Origin: Spirirestis rafaelensis WJT71-NPBG6 | GTDB lineage: Bacteria > Cyanobacteriota > Cyanobacteriia > Cyanobacteriales > Nostocaceae | NCBI GenBank assembly: GCA_019359015.1 | Contig: JAHHID010000008.1 | Location: 62,001-126,000, forward strand | Length of the DNA stretch: 64,000 bases | Reading direction: 5' to 3' | Part shown: in pieces, positions 50,085 to 61,208 of the stretch | Layout: every line of letters begins with the position of its first letter | Numbering within the stretch: position 1 is the first letter of the stretch | Position numbers and translations under genes: made by a program | Notes under the pieces: generated by a model | What the model was told of the DNA's origin: nothing | What the model saw: only the letters and a program-made list of their open reading frames with translations | Database searches by the model: none

Positions 50085-50577
50085 TTGACACTCTCACCGC
50101 TACAAGCTTTGCTTGTAGCGGGAGATTCTTGTTTCATTCCCACTTATCTAGATTAGTATTGCTACTAACCCCCGACAGTACGAGTCAACAAGCATTTTCG
50201 CTCTACCGCCTGCCCAACGGCATTTACACCACGATTTCTAATTACCTGCGAAGCTGCAACATCACGATTTGTTGTATATCCACATTCAGGACAAGAATGC
50301 ACTCTAACATCTAAAGCTTTCTTCCCTGTATGTGCATCACAATTAGGGCAAGTTTGGCTAGTTCCATCTTTGTTGACCTTGCCAAAATACTTACCTCTTT
50401 TCCAGGCTACATAACCCAATATTGTAAAGAACTGCCCAAAACCAGCATCAAGAGTATGTTTGCAAAACATACCTTTAGCCCATGCTTTAAAATCAATATC
50501 TTCGACAAATATTGAATCTCCTTGGTCACAAATCTTGTGTGCTGTTTTAAAGTGAAAATCTTTTCTGGTATGGGATA
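50085..50577 (-). pseudogene. Truncated TnpB element (C-terminal remnant)
   Basis: The open frame from 50577 down to 50165 encodes the C-terminal third of TnpB: HTRKDFHFKTAHKICDQG, FVEDIDFKAWAKGMFCKHTL, the zinc finger CPNCDAHTGKK...CPECGY and the last RuvC Asp (TTNRDVAASQV). The N-terminal 65% is missing. The right end survives as hairpin CCGCTACAAGC/GCTTGTAGCGG plus GAGTGTCAAA at about 50085-50112. The break point is six bases from the stop of the ABC transporter gene. Confidence 0.85.
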
Positions 50578-55326: not shown

Positions 55327-56088
55327 ATGATAAAAACACGTAGGTACTTAGTTATTAATTAATTATTTCTTAACAATCAATTTAATGATTGTTGTTATAG
55401 AATGCTTTCAGCCAAATAAAACTTCCATTTATAAGAACCGATGCCACTAATAATATAATATTTTGTGAATCCAGGTGTGGATAGTAACGAGGTCAATAAA
55501 TGCGTCAAAATAAACCTTTCGACGCTCCCATCTGAGGACGACACGAGGTTATTTGCGTTGAAAAAAAGCGAAACACCGCTCAGAAGTGAAATCGAAGTGA
55601 AATCTAGGAATAGAAATTTTGATGGGTCTTCCTGTGTTTTTCCTGGTTTTCCAAACTCGTTTTCGCCATTGGGGGCGAATACCTCGTTTGCTTCGGGCAG
55701 CACGTTTAACAGATTATTAAATATTTATTAAGTATTTATTTAACTGTCTTAACTGTCTTAACTGTCCTTGTATTTTTATGAAAATTTTGAGATATTGAAA
55801 GCTTGAAGTGCGCTGAGATACATTTCAAGCGGCTTCCATTAAAGCATTTGTCAAGCTAGACGCTTTAAGCCAGCGACTATGTACGCTGCTGCAATAGTAT
55901 TCTGCCCTGGACTGATGTCTTGAGGCGAACACTGTTGTGCAGAGTTGTCTTTTGCGTTGACTAAACCTGCACTCATTCATTTTAAAAATCCAGTAATTTT
56001 TAGAGTCAAATCATGGTAGCAATACCCATCCAAACTTAAAACCCTTTGCCTGAACGTAAACAGCATTAAAGGAAAAGTAAGATTTTTT
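55327..56088. other. Gene-poor region before the oxylipin locus
   Basis: About 760 bases. Two overlapping opposite-strand frames of about 90-100 codons (55395-55731) lack family features, so neither is accepted; one could be a decayed gene. AACTGTCTT is repeated about three times at 55741-55767. The last 50 bases carry a Shine-Dalgarno-like AAAGGAAAAG before the hydrolase gene. Confidence 0.45.
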
Positions 56089-57096
56089 ATGAAACGTATT
56101 GTAGTTTGCTGTGATGGAACCTGGCAACAGTTAACGAGTCCTTACCCAAGCAATATAGTTAAGCTGGCTCAATCGGTGAAACCGATCGCTAGTGACGGAG
56201 TTACACAGGTCGTGTTTTATGACGAGGGCATTGGAACCGACAGTCAAAAGGTTTTAGGTGGAGCTACCGGACTAGGAATTGATAGAAATATAGAAGATGG
56301 CTACCGATTTCTTAGTCTCAACTATGTTCCTGGTGACGAAATCTATCTGTTCGGTTTCAGTCGCGGTGCTTACACAGTTAGGAGTCTAGCGGGGATGATC
56401 TATTGCTCCGGTCTTTTAGACCGTCCCCATGTCACCAAAGCACATGAAGCTTACGAGCTTTACCGTAAACGGGGTGTTAAACCCAGAGATCAGGAAGCAA
56501 CGGAATACCGTCAAACTTACGGCGATCGCGTCCCTATCACCTTGGTCGGTTGTTTTGACACCGTCGGTGCCCTTGGTATTCCTGGGATACCCGCCTTCAG
56601 TAAGTTGCACGAACAGCTAAATAAGCGGTATAGATTCCATGACACTACTTTAAACAAATGTGTTCAGAATGCATTGCACGCTGTGGCGATCGACGAAATC
56701 CGCGAAGTCTTTGATGTAACTCCTATGAAGAAGCATCCTGACGCTGAAAACCAGCGGGTGATTCAAAAGTGGTTTCCAGGTGAGCATGGTTGCGTTGGCG
56801 GTGGAACCGAAGAACACAGCGGGTTATCAGATGCTGCCTTACAGTGGATGATTGATTCCATCGGTGTTCTGGAATTGGGGCTTGACTTAGATCCAAGTGT
56901 GATTCCGACAGGCATTAACCCCAATTATGAATGTGACTTTAAGAACGATGTTGGATTCTTTAAATTCGCAGGAATCAAGTTTCGTGAGGTCAGCGATGTC
57001 ATTGATGATCTTCATGAAAGCGCACTCAATCGTTTGAAAAGTCGCAAGGACTATCGACCCAAGAATCTACAAAAGATTATTGACAAACTGAATTAA
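56089..57096 (+). CDS. DUF2235 alpha/beta-hydrolase (Tle1-like phospholipase catalytic domain)
   Basis: 335 residues. KRIVVCCDGTWQ at the start and GFSRGAYTVRSLAGMI with Ser91 in the GxSxG nucleophile elbow define DUF2235. VALTLVGCFDTVGALGIP-like text appears as ITLVGCFDTVGALGIP, and WFPGEHGCVGGG supplies the likely acidic and His region. In type VI secretion Tle1 effectors this domain is a phospholipase A. No secretion genes or VgrG/PAAR domains are here. It lies 278 bases upstream of the fatty-acid dioxygenase on the same strand, so release of fatty acids for that enzyme is a reasonable inference. Confidence 0.85.
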   Translation: MKRIVVCCDGTWQQLTSPYPSNIVKLAQSVKPIASDGVTQVVFYDEGIGTDSQKVLGGATGLGIDRNIEDGYRFLSLNYVPGDEIYLFGFSRGAYTVRSLAGMIYCSGLLDRPHVTKAHEAYELYRKRGVKPRDQEATEYRQTYGDRVPITLVGCFDTVGALGIPGIPAFSKLHEQLNKRYRFHDTTLNKCVQNALHAVAIDEIREVFDVTPMKKHPDAENQRVIQKWFPGEHGCVGGGTEEHSGLSDAALQWMIDSIGVLELGLDLDPSVIPTGINPNYECDFKNDVGFFKFAGIKFREVSDVIDDLHESALNRLKSRKDYRPKNLQKIIDKLN

Positions 57097-57374
57097 TGGG
57101 ATATCTTGACATTATTCGTTCATAACTCAGGGTCTTCTCACCAGATGCGATCGCGTAGCGTGTCGTTCAGACAATTGCTTCTTCATCTTTTTCTTACAAG
57201 TAACTAGATAAGCTGCACTAGATTTTTATACATTTTCTCTGCTAATGCTCCCAAGTCAGAAGTCCTAGTACAAAAAGTATTCGATTTTTTCAATTAATTG
57301 GGCAACTGAAGCAGTTAAATTTAGGGTGCATTGAATACAAATAAAAAATTTGAAAAAAGAAAAGTAAACAAATT

Positions 57375-59003
57375 ATGGCTGGAAAAAGAGATACATCCAA
57401 AGACGGGTTAAACAACAAGCTTCAGACATTAGCTTTAACAAACTTTAAAGGGCTTTGGCAACTTCTACAAAGTAACGAATCTATAAAACGTAAAGTTAAT
57501 AAAACTTTGATTAATAGTCTCATCTATAAAATTCCTACTCGTCCTAATGCCTACAGTATGATGAGTCTAGATAAGCATATTCCTGATACTGAAATTCCTA
57601 AGAAAACTGATAGTTATACTTCCTGGGAATCACTCAACGATCGCAGTTATACAGGACGACATCTACCACCCGATCCAAAGTTAAACTCTGAGGGGAATTT
57701 ACCAAAAGTTGAAGACCTGGCTGTTTTATTCCGTAAAAGAGATGGAAAAACGATTTATTCTACCAAATCAACTATGCTGTTTCCCTATTGGGTGCAGTGG
57801 TTTACTGATAGTTTTCTCCGCTTGGATCACTCTAATAAATTAAAAAATACTTCCAACCATGAAATTGATTTGTGTAATGTTTATGGTTTAACCAGAAAAC
57901 AATCACATCTTTTAAGAACCTTTCAAGGAGGTAAATTCAAAACTCAGAAACTCAAGCGCCAAGATGGTGTAGAAGAAGAATATCCTTTGTTTTATTATGC
58001 CGATCCAGCGCAGGGTATAGTTGATCCTCAATTTGAGGGTCTTTATGAACCCATCAATGATGAAAAAAGACAGCCCGCAGATAAAAAACAATATCTGTTT
58101 GCAATGGGAGTAGAACGAGCAAATGTCCAAATTGGCTATGTCATGCTCAATACTCTATGTATCCGGGAACATAATCGCCTTTGTGATGAATTAGCAAGCA
58201 ATTATCCAGATTGGGATGATGAACGTCTCTTCCAAACCTCAAGAAATATTCTCATGGCGATTATTCTCAAAATCATCATGCAAGAGTACATTAACCACAT
58301 AACTCCCTATCACTTTAAATTGTTTGCCGATCCTGAAGCTTTTACTAAGGAAAGTTGGCATCGTCCCAATTATATGGCAATTGAGTTTGACTTTGTTTAT
58401 CGCTGGCATAGCGCGATTCCCGAAACATTTAACTATAACGGTAAACCAACTCATATTGCTACATCTCTCTGGAACAATAAGATGTTTATTGACCAAGGTT
58501 TGGGAGCATTGATGGAGGAAACTTGTTCCCAACCAGGTACAAAAATTGGATTATTCAACACCCCTGATATATTAGTTGAGTTAACCGAGTTACCCTCAAT
58601 TAAATTGGGACGGCAATTGCAATTAGCAAGCTACAACGATTATCGGGAATTGTGCGGTTTCCCCAGAGTGACGAAGTTTGAGCAAATTACGGGCAATGAA
58701 TTTGCTCAAGAGAAACTCAAAGAACTATATGGTCATGTTGATAAGATTGAGTTCTTTGTGGGGCTTTATGCCGAGGATGGGCGGCAAAATTCAACTATTC
58801 CTTCCCTAGTAGCACGCTTAATTGGGATTGATGCCTTTTCTCAAGCGCTAACTAATCCTTTACTATCACCCAATATCTTCAATAAAGACACTTTTTCTCC
58901 TGTGGGTTGGGAAATAATTCAAAATACCAACACAGTCTCAGATTTAGTTAATCGCAACGTTCCTCCATCAGGCAAAAAGTACAAAGTTACTTTTGACCTT
59001 TAA
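57375..59003 (+). CDS. Cyclooxygenase-like fatty-acid heme dioxygenase (linoleate 10S-dioxygenase type)
   Basis: 542 residues of the animal-peroxidase/cyclooxygenase superfamily. FDFVYRWHSAIPE contains Tyr342 and His345, equivalent to the catalytic Tyr385 and proximal heme His388 of COX. NVYG, REHNRLCDEL and the LxxGRQLQLASYNDYRE region also match. The segment aligning with COX QHFTHQF reads QWFTDSF, so the distal His appears replaced by Asp145. In Nostoc punctiforme a close relative is a linoleate/oleate 10S-dioxygenase acting with the adjacent catalase-related lyase, and the same arrangement occurs here. The gap to the next gene is 237 bases. Confidence 0.88.
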   Translation: MAGKRDTSKDGLNNKLQTLALTNFKGLWQLLQSNESIKRKVNKTLINSLIYKIPTRPNAYSMMSLDKHIPDTEIPKKTDSYTSWESLNDRSYTGRHLPPDPKLNSEGNLPKVEDLAVLFRKRDGKTIYSTKSTMLFPYWVQWFTDSFLRLDHSNKLKNTSNHEIDLCNVYGLTRKQSHLLRTFQGGKFKTQKLKRQDGVEEEYPLFYYADPAQGIVDPQFEGLYEPINDEKRQPADKKQYLFAMGVERANVQIGYVMLNTLCIREHNRLCDELASNYPDWDDERLFQTSRNILMAIILKIIMQEYINHITPYHFKLFADPEAFTKESWHRPNYMAIEFDFVYRWHSAIPETFNYNGKPTHIATSLWNNKMFIDQGLGALMEETCSQPGTKIGLFNTPDILVELTELPSIKLGRQLQLASYNDYRELCGFPRVTKFEQITGNEFAQEKLKELYGHVDKIEFFVGLYAEDGRQNSTIPSLVARLIGIDAFSQALTNPLLSPNIFNKDTFSPVGWEIIQNTNTVSDLVNRNVPPSGKKYKVTFDL

Positions 59004-59028
59004 GAGATTGTAGTATTCTAATCTGTAG

Positions 59029-59118
59029 GGTGCGTTATAGCGAAGCGTAACGCACCGCAGATCAGATAAAAATGGTGCGTTACTTGCCTACGGCAGGCTA
59101 CGCGAACGTTAACGCACC
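59029..59118. repeat. Tandem hairpins (GGTGCGTTA family) between the oxylipin genes
   Basis: Two adjacent inverted repeats, 59029-59056 and 59074-59118, each with GGTGCGTTA/TAACGCACC-type arms. This is a common cyanobacterial dispersed repeat. The hairpins could attenuate read-through from the dioxygenase to the lyase gene. Confidence 0.75.
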
Positions 59119-59240
59119 TTACCAATATCTGATAGTTTATTTTTTCAAACAAATCTCGAAGCTGGATGAGTAATAACTGCAAACAAGCGATTGCAGCTTA
59201 AAATAAACTCAATTAATTAATTAATGCCACTTAAAAGAAA

Positions 59241-60422
59241 ATGAAACTATTTACAGAATATCCAGAAAAAGACGAAGCAAAATATTGCGCTCTCATGAGC
59301 GATCTAGTTAAAAAGAACATGGACAATCTTTACGGAGGTGATAAGAAAAAAATTGCCAAGAGAGATACTCACGCGAAAACCCACGCTGCTGTTCAAGGAA
59401 CTCTAGAAATATTTGATTTTGATGAAGCAGCAATTAAGCAGGAATTGAGCAAACGCACCTCATTAACTGAAGCTCAACTTCAAGGAATTTCCTTAAAACA
59501 AGGTTTATTTGCCAAAGCGAAACAATATCCGGTGTGGCTACGATTTGCAAGTGGTGCGTTCTCAGTCAAGAATGATTATGAAGGAGATACGCGCTCGATG
59601 GCTATAAAAATCATCGGCGTAGAAGGAGAACGACTACCGCAAAGTCACGAGTTAAAAACCCAAGATATTATTGTCCACAATACCGAATTCTTTTTTGTTA
59701 GAACCATCAAAGACTTCCACAGCTTTTTTACGGCGGTTTATCGAGCAGGATTGTTTCCGCTTTTTAAGTTGTTGGTGCTTTTATGGCTAAAGTTGCATCC
59801 CTACGAATCCACTCTTTTACAAACGAGTTTCAAACGGTTTCCCAAGAGTTTGCTCACAGAACGCTATTGGAGTGCTTCAGCGTATTCTGTGGGACTCAAA
59901 CCTGATTTTGACCCATCCCAACCAGGTCGAGTTCCTGTGGAATATCCGGCTGTGATAAAGTTTGGATTTACTCCGGTTTCCAGTCAACCACCTCATCAAC
60001 ACCTGACTCTGGAGTCCAGACCAGAAAGTGAGCTTCAGCGTGCCAAAGAGGAAGGGAAAGAGGACAACTACTACCGAGAGGATATCAATCAAGCTTTAGC
60101 CAAGCCTGATGCTGAATACAGTTGGGACTTTCAAATCCAATTTCAAACTAGCCCAGAAATGTCCATTGATGATACCACCATTGTTTGGAATGAAGAGGAT
60201 GCACCCTTCTTTACAGTTGGTCGTTTGACAGTTAAGCATCAGAAGGTTGATTCTCCCCTAGAAAATGACTTTGGGGAAAATCTCAGTTTTTCTCCTGCGA
60301 ATGGTCTAGCAGTGCATCGTCCTGTCGGTGCAATCAATCGGTTACGCAGCATCGTTTATCCTATCGTTGCTGATTCCCGTCATGAAAAACGAGGAGTTAA
60401 ATACCAGGAACCAACTGTCTAA
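59241..60422 (+). CDS. Catalase-related hemoprotein (10S-hydroperoxide lyase / allene oxide synthase type)
   Basis: 393 residues, much shorter than catalase. Distal His48 is preceded by Thr47 (KTHAAVQG), the Thr-His pair seen in coral allene oxide synthase, where true catalases have Val-His. The heme-pocket Asn lies in VHNTEFFFVR. Proximal Tyr373 stands in the catalase motif RxxxY (RSIVY). Loss of the peroxide-selective residue fits a fatty-acid-hydroperoxide substrate. In N. punctiforme the neighbouring homologue cleaves the linoleate 10S-hydroperoxide to 10-oxo-8E-decenoic acid and C8 alcohols, mainly 1-octen-3-ol. This copy probably does the same. Confidence 0.85.
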   Translation: MKLFTEYPEKDEAKYCALMSDLVKKNMDNLYGGDKKKIAKRDTHAKTHAAVQGTLEIFDFDEAAIKQELSKRTSLTEAQLQGISLKQGLFAKAKQYPVWLRFASGAFSVKNDYEGDTRSMAIKIIGVEGERLPQSHELKTQDIIVHNTEFFFVRTIKDFHSFFTAVYRAGLFPLFKLLVLLWLKLHPYESTLLQTSFKRFPKSLLTERYWSASAYSVGLKPDFDPSQPGRVPVEYPAVIKFGFTPVSSQPPHQHLTLESRPESELQRAKEEGKEDNYYREDINQALAKPDAEYSWDFQIQFQTSPEMSIDDTTIVWNEEDAPFFTVGRLTVKHQKVDSPLENDFGENLSFSPANGLAVHRPVGAINRLRSIVYPIVADSRHEKRGVKYQEPTV

Positions 60423-60569
60423 CTTTTCACCTGTATAACTTCTTTGCCTTTGCACCCCTAACTTTGTGCCCACAGATCGAAACAAACACAAAGTTAGGGT
60501 AATCGTAAAAAGGAAAAAATGAGAATCTCATTGCATTAGCATTCTTTGTCTCCCCATCTTTTAGTCTCC

Positions 60570-61208
60570 TCATCTCCTTCGTTGCAGTACGACAAATATG
60601 ATGCCTCCTGCTGCAAGGGCTGATAAAGCGATCGCTATTGGTATAAACCCGCTTTTTCTATCTTCTACAACATCATTGACATTTTTTACATTCTGTGTAC
60701 TAAACGCTGATGCTGAACCAGCGGCGACAGTGACTTCAAACTTTAACTTAAACGGTTGGAAACTCGCGCCAGATGCAGGTTTGCCGCTGAGTTCTAGCAG
60801 ATAAGCTCCGGGCTTGGGGAATGTAATTTCTGAACCGGGAATGCCTTTATAACGCTCGGCACTAATGGCTTGCAAGGGTGGCTCAAGCAGTGCTGGCTCA
60901 TTTGGTGAATGAGGTTCCGCGTAAACAGCTAATTGGCAATTACACTCTTTTAGGGGGATAACCTTTCCACCTTTACGGGTAAGGGCAACCCAAAGTTGCG
61001 AAGGCTCCCCAGCACGGGGATTATCGTTTGGTTGAATGTGCAGCGTACCGCCAACATCTGCCGCTGTTTTGACGTTATGGGCAGAGGCTAAGGCAAAAGG
61101 CAGAAGGCAGAAGGCAGAAGGCAGAAGGCAGAAGGCAAAAGCAAGAATCCCCTCGACTTTAGCCAGGGGAATGTCAACGCGACTTGGTTGGGGTGTCGTA
61201 GGCATCAT
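60570..61208 (-). CDS. Exported membrane-anchored protein with a repeat-encoded signal peptide
   Basis: About 212 residues from the ATG at 61208, which overlaps the TGA of the upstream gene (ATGA), so translation is coupled. The signal peptide region reads FAFCLLPSAFCLLPFALASA and is encoded by seven GGCAGAA-type heptamers (61091-61139). The mature domain is beta-rich with a possible metal site (ECNCQLAVYAEPHSPNEP) and one C-terminal helix (IPIAIALSALAAGGIIFVVL) ending QRRR. It may be a copper-handling or cell-surface partner of the TauE/SafE-like protein. No family is recognised. Confidence 0.72.
   Translation of the reverse strand: MMPTTPQPSRVDIPLAKVEGILAFAFCLLPSAFCLLPFALASAHNVKTAADVGGTLHIQPNDNPRAGEPSQLWVALTRKGGKVIPLKECNCQLAVYAEPHSPNEPALLEPPLQAISAERYKGIPGSEITFPKPGAYLLELSGKPASGASFQPFKLKFEVTVAAGSASAFSTQNVKNVNDVVEDRKSGFIPIAIALSALAAGGIIFVVLQRRR
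61091..61139. repeat. Heptanucleotide repeat inside a signal-peptide coding region
   Basis: Seven units AGGCA(A/G)A in tandem, 49 bases. Because seven is not a multiple of three, gain or loss of one unit would shift the frame of the exported protein. Confidence 0.88.

Follow-up and report, generated by a model that had tools for sequence, protein, structure and literature searches.

The closest described system to the locus reported here is a pair of haem enzymes in Nostoc punctiforme, a cyclooxygenase-like dioxygenase (DOX) and a catalase-like lyase, whose second cleavage product is a C10 oxo-acid. According to the excerpts of PMC13049297 and PMC9579011 at hand, both of which trace the pair to Brash et al. 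2014, the dioxygenase forms a 10S-hydroperoxide and its catalase-like partner converts this to 1-octen-3-ol. The characterised dioxygenase, UniProt B2J5P4, is 542 aa long; its key positions are printed in the excerpts of PMC13049297, which also report oleic and linoleic acid as its substrates. Neither set of excerpts mentions a DUF2235 gene upstream of the Nostoc pair.

The window, by which we mean the whole 64,000-nucleotide stretch analysed from Spirirestis rafaelensis WJT71-NPBG6 (contig JAHHID010000008.1), carries a comparable pair with a third gene in front of it. A first-pass annotation had described three open reading frames on the plus strand, separated by 278 bases (DUF2235 to DOX) and 237 bases (DOX to lyase), and our open reading frame coordinates are identical:

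56089-57096, + strand: DUF2235/PF09994 alpha/beta hydrolase, putative lipase, 335 aa (PF09994, 2e-81)
57375-59003, + strand: COX-like haem dioxygenase (DOX), 542 aa, orthologue of the N. punctiforme linoleate 10S-dioxygenase (PF03098, 4.7e-51)
59241-60422, + strand: catalase-related haem protein, probable 10S-hydroperoxide lyase, 393 aa (PF00199, 3.6e-8)

The Nostoc-type pair and its DUF2235 neighbour

That the last two genes correspond to the tandem known from Nostoc, as first proposed, is borne out by the dioxygenase. Its key residues (FTDSF at 143, Y305, I306, T310, Y342, G469, I483, A487 and Q490) agree with the positions printed for B2J5P4 in the excerpts of PMC13049297, in the same numbering; the two proteins are of equal length, the lyase gene lies next downstream, and the single mismatch to the printed motif is S477, an alanine in the Nostoc enzyme, at a position occupied by A, S or P among DOX orthologues. 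The best PDB match is COX-2 (8e-64). The catalytic tyrosine and proximal histidine both lie in YRWH (Y342, H345), and the position of the COX distal histidine is Asp145, as in the characterised Nostoc enzyme (excerpts of PMC13049297). When homologues of at least 480 aa were aligned (105 sequences, 87 of them distinct), YRWH, Asp145 and Ala487 were present in all 87, and the other substrate-site residues I306, T310 and I483 in 74, 77 and 72 respectively.

The AlphaFold2 model of the lyase (pLDDT 78, pTM 0.83) has a minimal catalase fold. In a Foldseek comparison with the PDB, the catalase-related protein 3e4y came first (E 2.1e-13) and 1u5u, a coral allene oxide synthase, scored 4.2e-11; a profile search of the PDB placed 1u5u first. 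H44, R369 and Y373 are invariant in 14 of 14 sequences, and we take H44 to be the distal histidine and R369 and Y373 the proximal Arg-x3-Tyr. To judge from sequence, the window pair is of the known Nostoc dioxygenase-lyase kind, and by orthology its products would be the 10S-hydroperoxide, the C8 alcohol and the C10 oxo-acid.

The first-pass annotation had also recognised a GxSxG hydrolase directly upstream on the same strand. The motif is present as GFSRG (S91), and the protein scores 273.9 bits against PF09994, where the curated cut-off is 27; this family, named 'T6SS_Tle1-like_cat' in Pfam, is presumably the former DUF2235. NCBIfam assigned no family to any of the three proteins of the cassette. 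The candidate catalytic residues are S91, D157 and H233, of which the first and last are conserved in 106 of 106 aligned homologues and D157 in 105, and we assume from this alignment and from general knowledge of such hydrolases that they form a Ser-Asp-His triad. AlphaFold2, given 15 close homologues, produced a model of low quality (pLDDT 51), and a Foldseek search with it returned no fold match at E<=0.001, although many of its top rows, all above that value, were alpha/beta hydrolases. On its family and motifs, the DUF2235 protein probably acts as a lipase.

The described proteins nearest to it are the T6SS phospholipase effectors of the Tle1 type, with which it shares the Pfam catalytic domain and whose GFSRG, FDTV and PGxH motifs align with its own, although its profile matches the Tle1 structures weakly (E 0.16-0.2). 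This raises the alternative that the window gene encodes a T6SS-type effector travelling by chance with the pair, in keeping with the domain's name and with a DUF2235-phospholipase literature that, in the titles and abstract openings seen, concerns T6SS effectors or toxins. Unlike Tle1, however, the window protein is short, stand-alone and linked to fatty-acid oxygenases, and its genome has no match to T6SS_VipA (PF05591), the one T6SS family screened, for which an E. coli control was positive. Moreover, neighbour clustering (which is not a full VgrG, PAAR or immunity-gene screen) shows no fourth gene family at a frequency above 11 loci out of 47, and homologues share a reading frame with a haem dioxygenase (see below). 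We accordingly give the effector interpretation almost no credence.

Distribution of DUF2235 beside fatty-acid oxygenases

A search with DOX recovered 46 loci, which together with the window make up the 47 that were clustered by neighbouring gene family: DOX is present in 47, the lyase in 36, DUF2235 in 25 and the next commonest family in 11. In all 24 relatives' loci that possess it, DUF2235 lies immediately upstream on the same strand. Within the S. rafaelensis genome (7.07 Mb, 143 contigs), PF09994 has a single match at E<=0.001, at this locus, and PF03098 has two. Since the only PF09994 match of the genome sits here, and since the trio recurs where the relatives' other neighbours differ, the association goes beyond chance.

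In a survey of 217 same-family genomes, DOX was found at 54 places in 50 genomes, which we divide into type A (at least 80% identity, 36 places) and type B (lower identity, 18 places). The first-pass proposal presupposed that DUF2235 is conserved beside the pair in other genomes, and it is indeed upstream at 33 of the 36 orthologous, type-A places, with the lyase downstream at 33 and both at 32. Three of these upstream copies are truncated, leaving 30 of 36 full length; as six places have a truncated or missing copy (one of those without it, in genome G453, being near a contig end), DUF2235 is not strictly required. Among type-B places, DUF2235 accompanies DOX at 11, the lyase at 15 and both at 10, while seven are without DUF2235; in five type-B loci (L030, L041, L043, L121 and L127) a second catalase-related type, 25-31% identical, occupies the lyase position. 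Counted by genome, 44 have both DOX and DUF2235 (at least 60% identity), six DOX only, nine DUF2235 only and 158 neither (Fisher p 2e-30, kinship ignored). These counts come from the surveys of the 217 genomes; a pooled locus list, partly seeded by DOX searches and with some genomes in duplicate, was set aside for counting. The link is looser in the wider taxonomic class, where 19 DOX loci (L131-L149), some on short contigs, include two with DUF2235, six with the lyase and 13 with neither.

Two genomes show irregular forms of the cassette. Genome G524 carries a decaying copy (L177:3911-5904) in which DUF2235 (91%) stands in line with fragments of the DOX and lyase genes. G453 (L118, L193, L277) has both a type-A and a type-B DOX, and its lyase is present in at least two closely similar copies at contig edges, where the assembly breaks.

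The strongest support for a link between DUF2235 and oxygenases comes from the reverse search. In the 217 genomes, DUF2235 homologues of at least 66% identity occur at 54 places, 44 of them beside DOX, four beside a lipoxygenase and six beside neither, so that 48 of 54 close homologues adjoin a fatty-acid oxygenase, against none of 13 distant ones (below 57% identity), which lie beside neither DOX nor lipoxygenase; both homologues at 57-66% adjoin a lipoxygenase. Of the six exceptions, one lies by a lipoxygenase remnant (G456:C80), one by dioxygenase and lyase remnants (G524), and one is itself a 390-base contig-edge piece (G526:C59); the copy in G560 and two in G521 have no oxygenase within about 4 kb on either side. 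Outside the family but within the order, all 20 places at 66% or above were inspected, and comprise 15 beside DOX, four beside a lipoxygenase (one only 26% alike) and one contig end. Among the places below that identity, 32 were inspected (L240-L271), of which two adjoin DOX (L248, L250) and none the lipoxygenase.

The lipoxygenases (identified by PF00305 and 5ek8) lie outside the window, in other genomes, and belong to an oxygenase class unrelated to the COX-like DOX. The DUF2235-linked enzyme matches 5ek8 over its full length (1071.7 bits); the PDB table calls this entry 'Lipoxygenase' only, and we take it to be the Cyanothece 9R-lipoxygenase CspLOX1. A converse search of the 217 genomes found ten matching the lipoxygenase at E<=1e-60, eight of them at 70% identity or more, six of the eight with DUF2235 upstream (stop-broken in G431), one with a remnant (G436) and one without it (G205). 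Nine cassettes with a full-length lipoxygenase of this kind were examined (L167, L169-L173, L236-L238); a P450 (PF00067) is present in seven and an NTF2-like gene in three. Motif rules separate CYP74-like from ordinary P450s, and a CYP74-like identity was not adopted for the lipoxygenase-side P450, which has an ordinary ETT I-helix and an FGxGxHxCxG haem motif. Separately, in G390 (L276:1045-10450) the order DUF2235-P450-DUF1304-lipoxygenase lies between two inverted, near-identical transposase-like frames (weak MULE/IS66) in the manner of a composite transposon, and in G565 (L278:6979-8562) a serine recombinase gene lies just upstream of DUF2235.

Spacing, exchange and fusion of the cassette genes

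From the widths of the gaps, the first-pass annotation had concluded that the genes are not a tight operon. This is misleading, since DUF2235 and DOX are 63-105 bases apart at 29 of the 33 type-A places that have both (the window counted among the 33), three genomes have the two genes in one frame, and the long gaps of the window look like local insertions. Survey gaps are measured from where the protein match ends, stop codon included (281 for the window's 278), and some type-B gaps are overstated where the match started at residue 83. Two features lie within the window's gaps:

57097-57290 (end approximate), no strand: probable local insertion of about 200 bases in the DUF2235-DOX gap, by comparison with relatives' spacers
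59025-59122, no strand: repeat-like element in the DOX-lyase gap with a 13-base imperfect inverted repeat (arms 59025-59037 and 59110-59122)

By eye, the final 85 or so bases of the first gap look like the complete spacer found in L004 and other relatives, and pairwise alignment of the window and L004 spacers has 198 gap columns; sequence like the repeat is likewise seen by eye in the DOX-lyase gap of L158. A scan of 55700-60600 found no terminator-like site on the plus strand and one on the minus strand. The cassette is probably co-transcribed. A promoter scan gave six sites, fewer than the 11.9 in shuffles, and is given no weight. The leader upstream of DUF2235 (55870-56088) is, by eye, without the TCAAAG..CTTTGAAAT-like stretch of several relatives. 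Elsewhere in the window, 50165-50470 on the minus strand encodes a fragment from the C-terminus of a TnpB-type protein (PF07282, 8e-20).

A DUF2235 tree was drawn from 125 loci (115 distinct, 96 rows, excluding sequences shorter than 250 aa or below 50% identity). One clade (SH-aLRT 99) holds 64 rows, of which 50 are linked to DOX, 11 to a lipoxygenase, two to none and one is short; two of the lipoxygenase rows are nested within the DOX part of the tree. DOX-linked rows outside this clade (L131, L248 and L250) fall in a group of 17, 13 of them without an oxygenase. Partner type (DOX A, DOX B or lipoxygenase) changes at least ten times on the tree as drawn, and fewer times on well-supported branches alone.

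Exchange can be followed at the nucleotide level. Loci L004 and L116 are 91.5% identical in DUF2235 and 93.4% in the lyase, with only 66.9% in the DOX between them; L116 and L118 are 89.8% identical in DUF2235 and 94.5% in DOX, with 67.4% in the lyase. Judged by these identities, the DOX type is exchanged between near-identical flanks. Recombination in the flanks could bring this about, as could the loss of one member of an earlier tandem. As the substrate-site residues of DOX are largely shared, a swap between types A and B is not predicted to change the product.

In three genomes (G654, G703 and G785), a single uninterrupted frame of 932, 944 and 920 aa respectively encodes DUF2235 joined to a type-B DOX, and the lyase gene comes next. 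The linker of G785 is unlike that of G654 and G703, and the two kinds of fusion stand apart on the DUF2235 tree, which suggests, without proving, two fusion events. An in-frame ATG persists at the point that corresponds to the start of stand-alone DOX proteins and might allow internal initiation. Genome G189 has the shuffled order DOX-lyase-DUF2235. In a single locus, L012 (Nostocales HT-58-2), DUF2235 is absent and its place ahead of DOX, at a distance of about 170 bases, is taken by a class-3 lipase (PF01764, 1.7e-28). A PF05990 alpha/beta hydrolase beside DOX in an Eremiobacterota MAG (L029) was discarded as too weak (3e-5).

An alternative explanation for these patterns is that the genes spread jointly on mobile DNA and have no common function. 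The surroundings of the cassette do vary, and transposase-like or recombinase genes flank some copies (L276, L278). Such neutral linkage would nevertheless have to produce, without selection, an association with two unrelated oxygenase classes, shuffled order and shared frames, as well as DUF2235 of another clade beside DOX (L131, L248, L250) and, in one case, a different lipase in the same place. We therefore regard it as quite improbable.

The fusions have a parallel in the fungal linoleate dioxygenases described in the excerpts of PMC13049297, where a haem dioxygenase is likewise joined to another protein that acts on lipids or carries haem; the fungal partner is a P450, whereas the cyanobacterial one is a lipase-like domain. 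When the DOX loci were screened with P450 queries, a P450 directly upstream of DOX was found in L143 and L146 only (L143:1170-2540, L146:6370-7626), on the same strand as deep-branching dioxygenases, an arrangement relevant to the origin of the fungal dioxygenase-P450 fusions.

A proposed pathway and its meaning

We propose, with a probability of roughly three in four, that the three genes constitute one oxylipin cassette for lipase action, oxygenation and hydroperoxide cleavage, in which the lipase is constant and the oxygenase module exchangeable. In the first step, the DUF2235 alpha/beta hydrolase would free a C18 fatty acid from the cell's own membrane lipid, a source suggested by the lack of a T6SS_VipA match in the genome and by the presence of a fatty-acid desaturase family (a family-level match, which does not distinguish the delta-12 type). 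The COX-like dioxygenase would then oxygenate the acid with O2 at C10, yielding the 10S-hydroperoxide, which the catalase-related protein would split into 1-octen-3-ol and the C10 oxo-acid. Across the cyanobacteria examined, what changes would be the oxygenase together with the haem protein that processes its hydroperoxide, either COX-like with catalase-like or lipoxygenase mostly with P450. A three-step route had been put forward in the first-pass annotation. Its linkage of DUF2235 to the pair now stands on 33 of 36 places, and is strengthened by the DUF2235-DOX fusions and by the occurrence of DUF2235 beside an unrelated lipoxygenase; the lipase step, its lipid substrate and co-expression keep the standing of predictions.

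Adjacency and fusion are compatible with any order of steps, and DUF2235 might instead act after oxygenation, cleaving oxidised lipids or oxylipin esters or lactones, with the oxygenase working on membrane-esterified fatty acids. The excerpts of PMC13049297 bear on this in both directions: in the 10S-DOX model the COX membrane-binding domain survives as three helices, as such an order might lead one to expect, but for the Nostoc enzyme they name oleic and linoleic acid as substrates. We consider this order unlikely, if the most serious of the alternatives, and retain the sequence that begins with the lipase.

What is already known is the DOX-lyase pair; what is new is the lipase as its constant, exchange-tolerant and sometimes fused partner. 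Our literature searches covered open-licence full text, with subscription papers outside their scope, and found no report of a DUF2235-oxylipin link there. Work joining DUF2235 with oxygenases, as far as its titles and abstract openings go, held nothing on cyanobacterial oxylipins; nothing was found on lipase and lipoxygenase gene clusters with hydroperoxide lyase in cyanobacteria; the literature on cyanobacterial oxylipins, 1-octen-3-ol and lipases consisted of reviews only, and DUF2235 in cyanobacteria appeared in a toxin context only.

To our knowledge, little is understood of how free fatty acids are supplied to bacterial oxygenases, and DUF2235 is a specific candidate lipase for this step, which would extend to a metabolic role a domain treated, in the titles and abstract openings found, as a T6SS toxin. 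The natural DUF2235-DOX frames are ready objects for studying channelling from membrane lipid to hydroperoxide. More broadly, and here the case seems to us evenly poised, cyanobacteria may have a modular oxylipin system that retains a dedicated lipase family and swaps the oxygenase together with its haem partner, with the genes travelling as cassettes and becoming fused in some lineages; this would be a bacterial counterpart of the phospholipase-cyclooxygenase-synthase logic of animals, possibly triggered by cell damage such as wounding. The exchangeable oxygenase module suggests that oxylipin output can change while the supply step stays the same.
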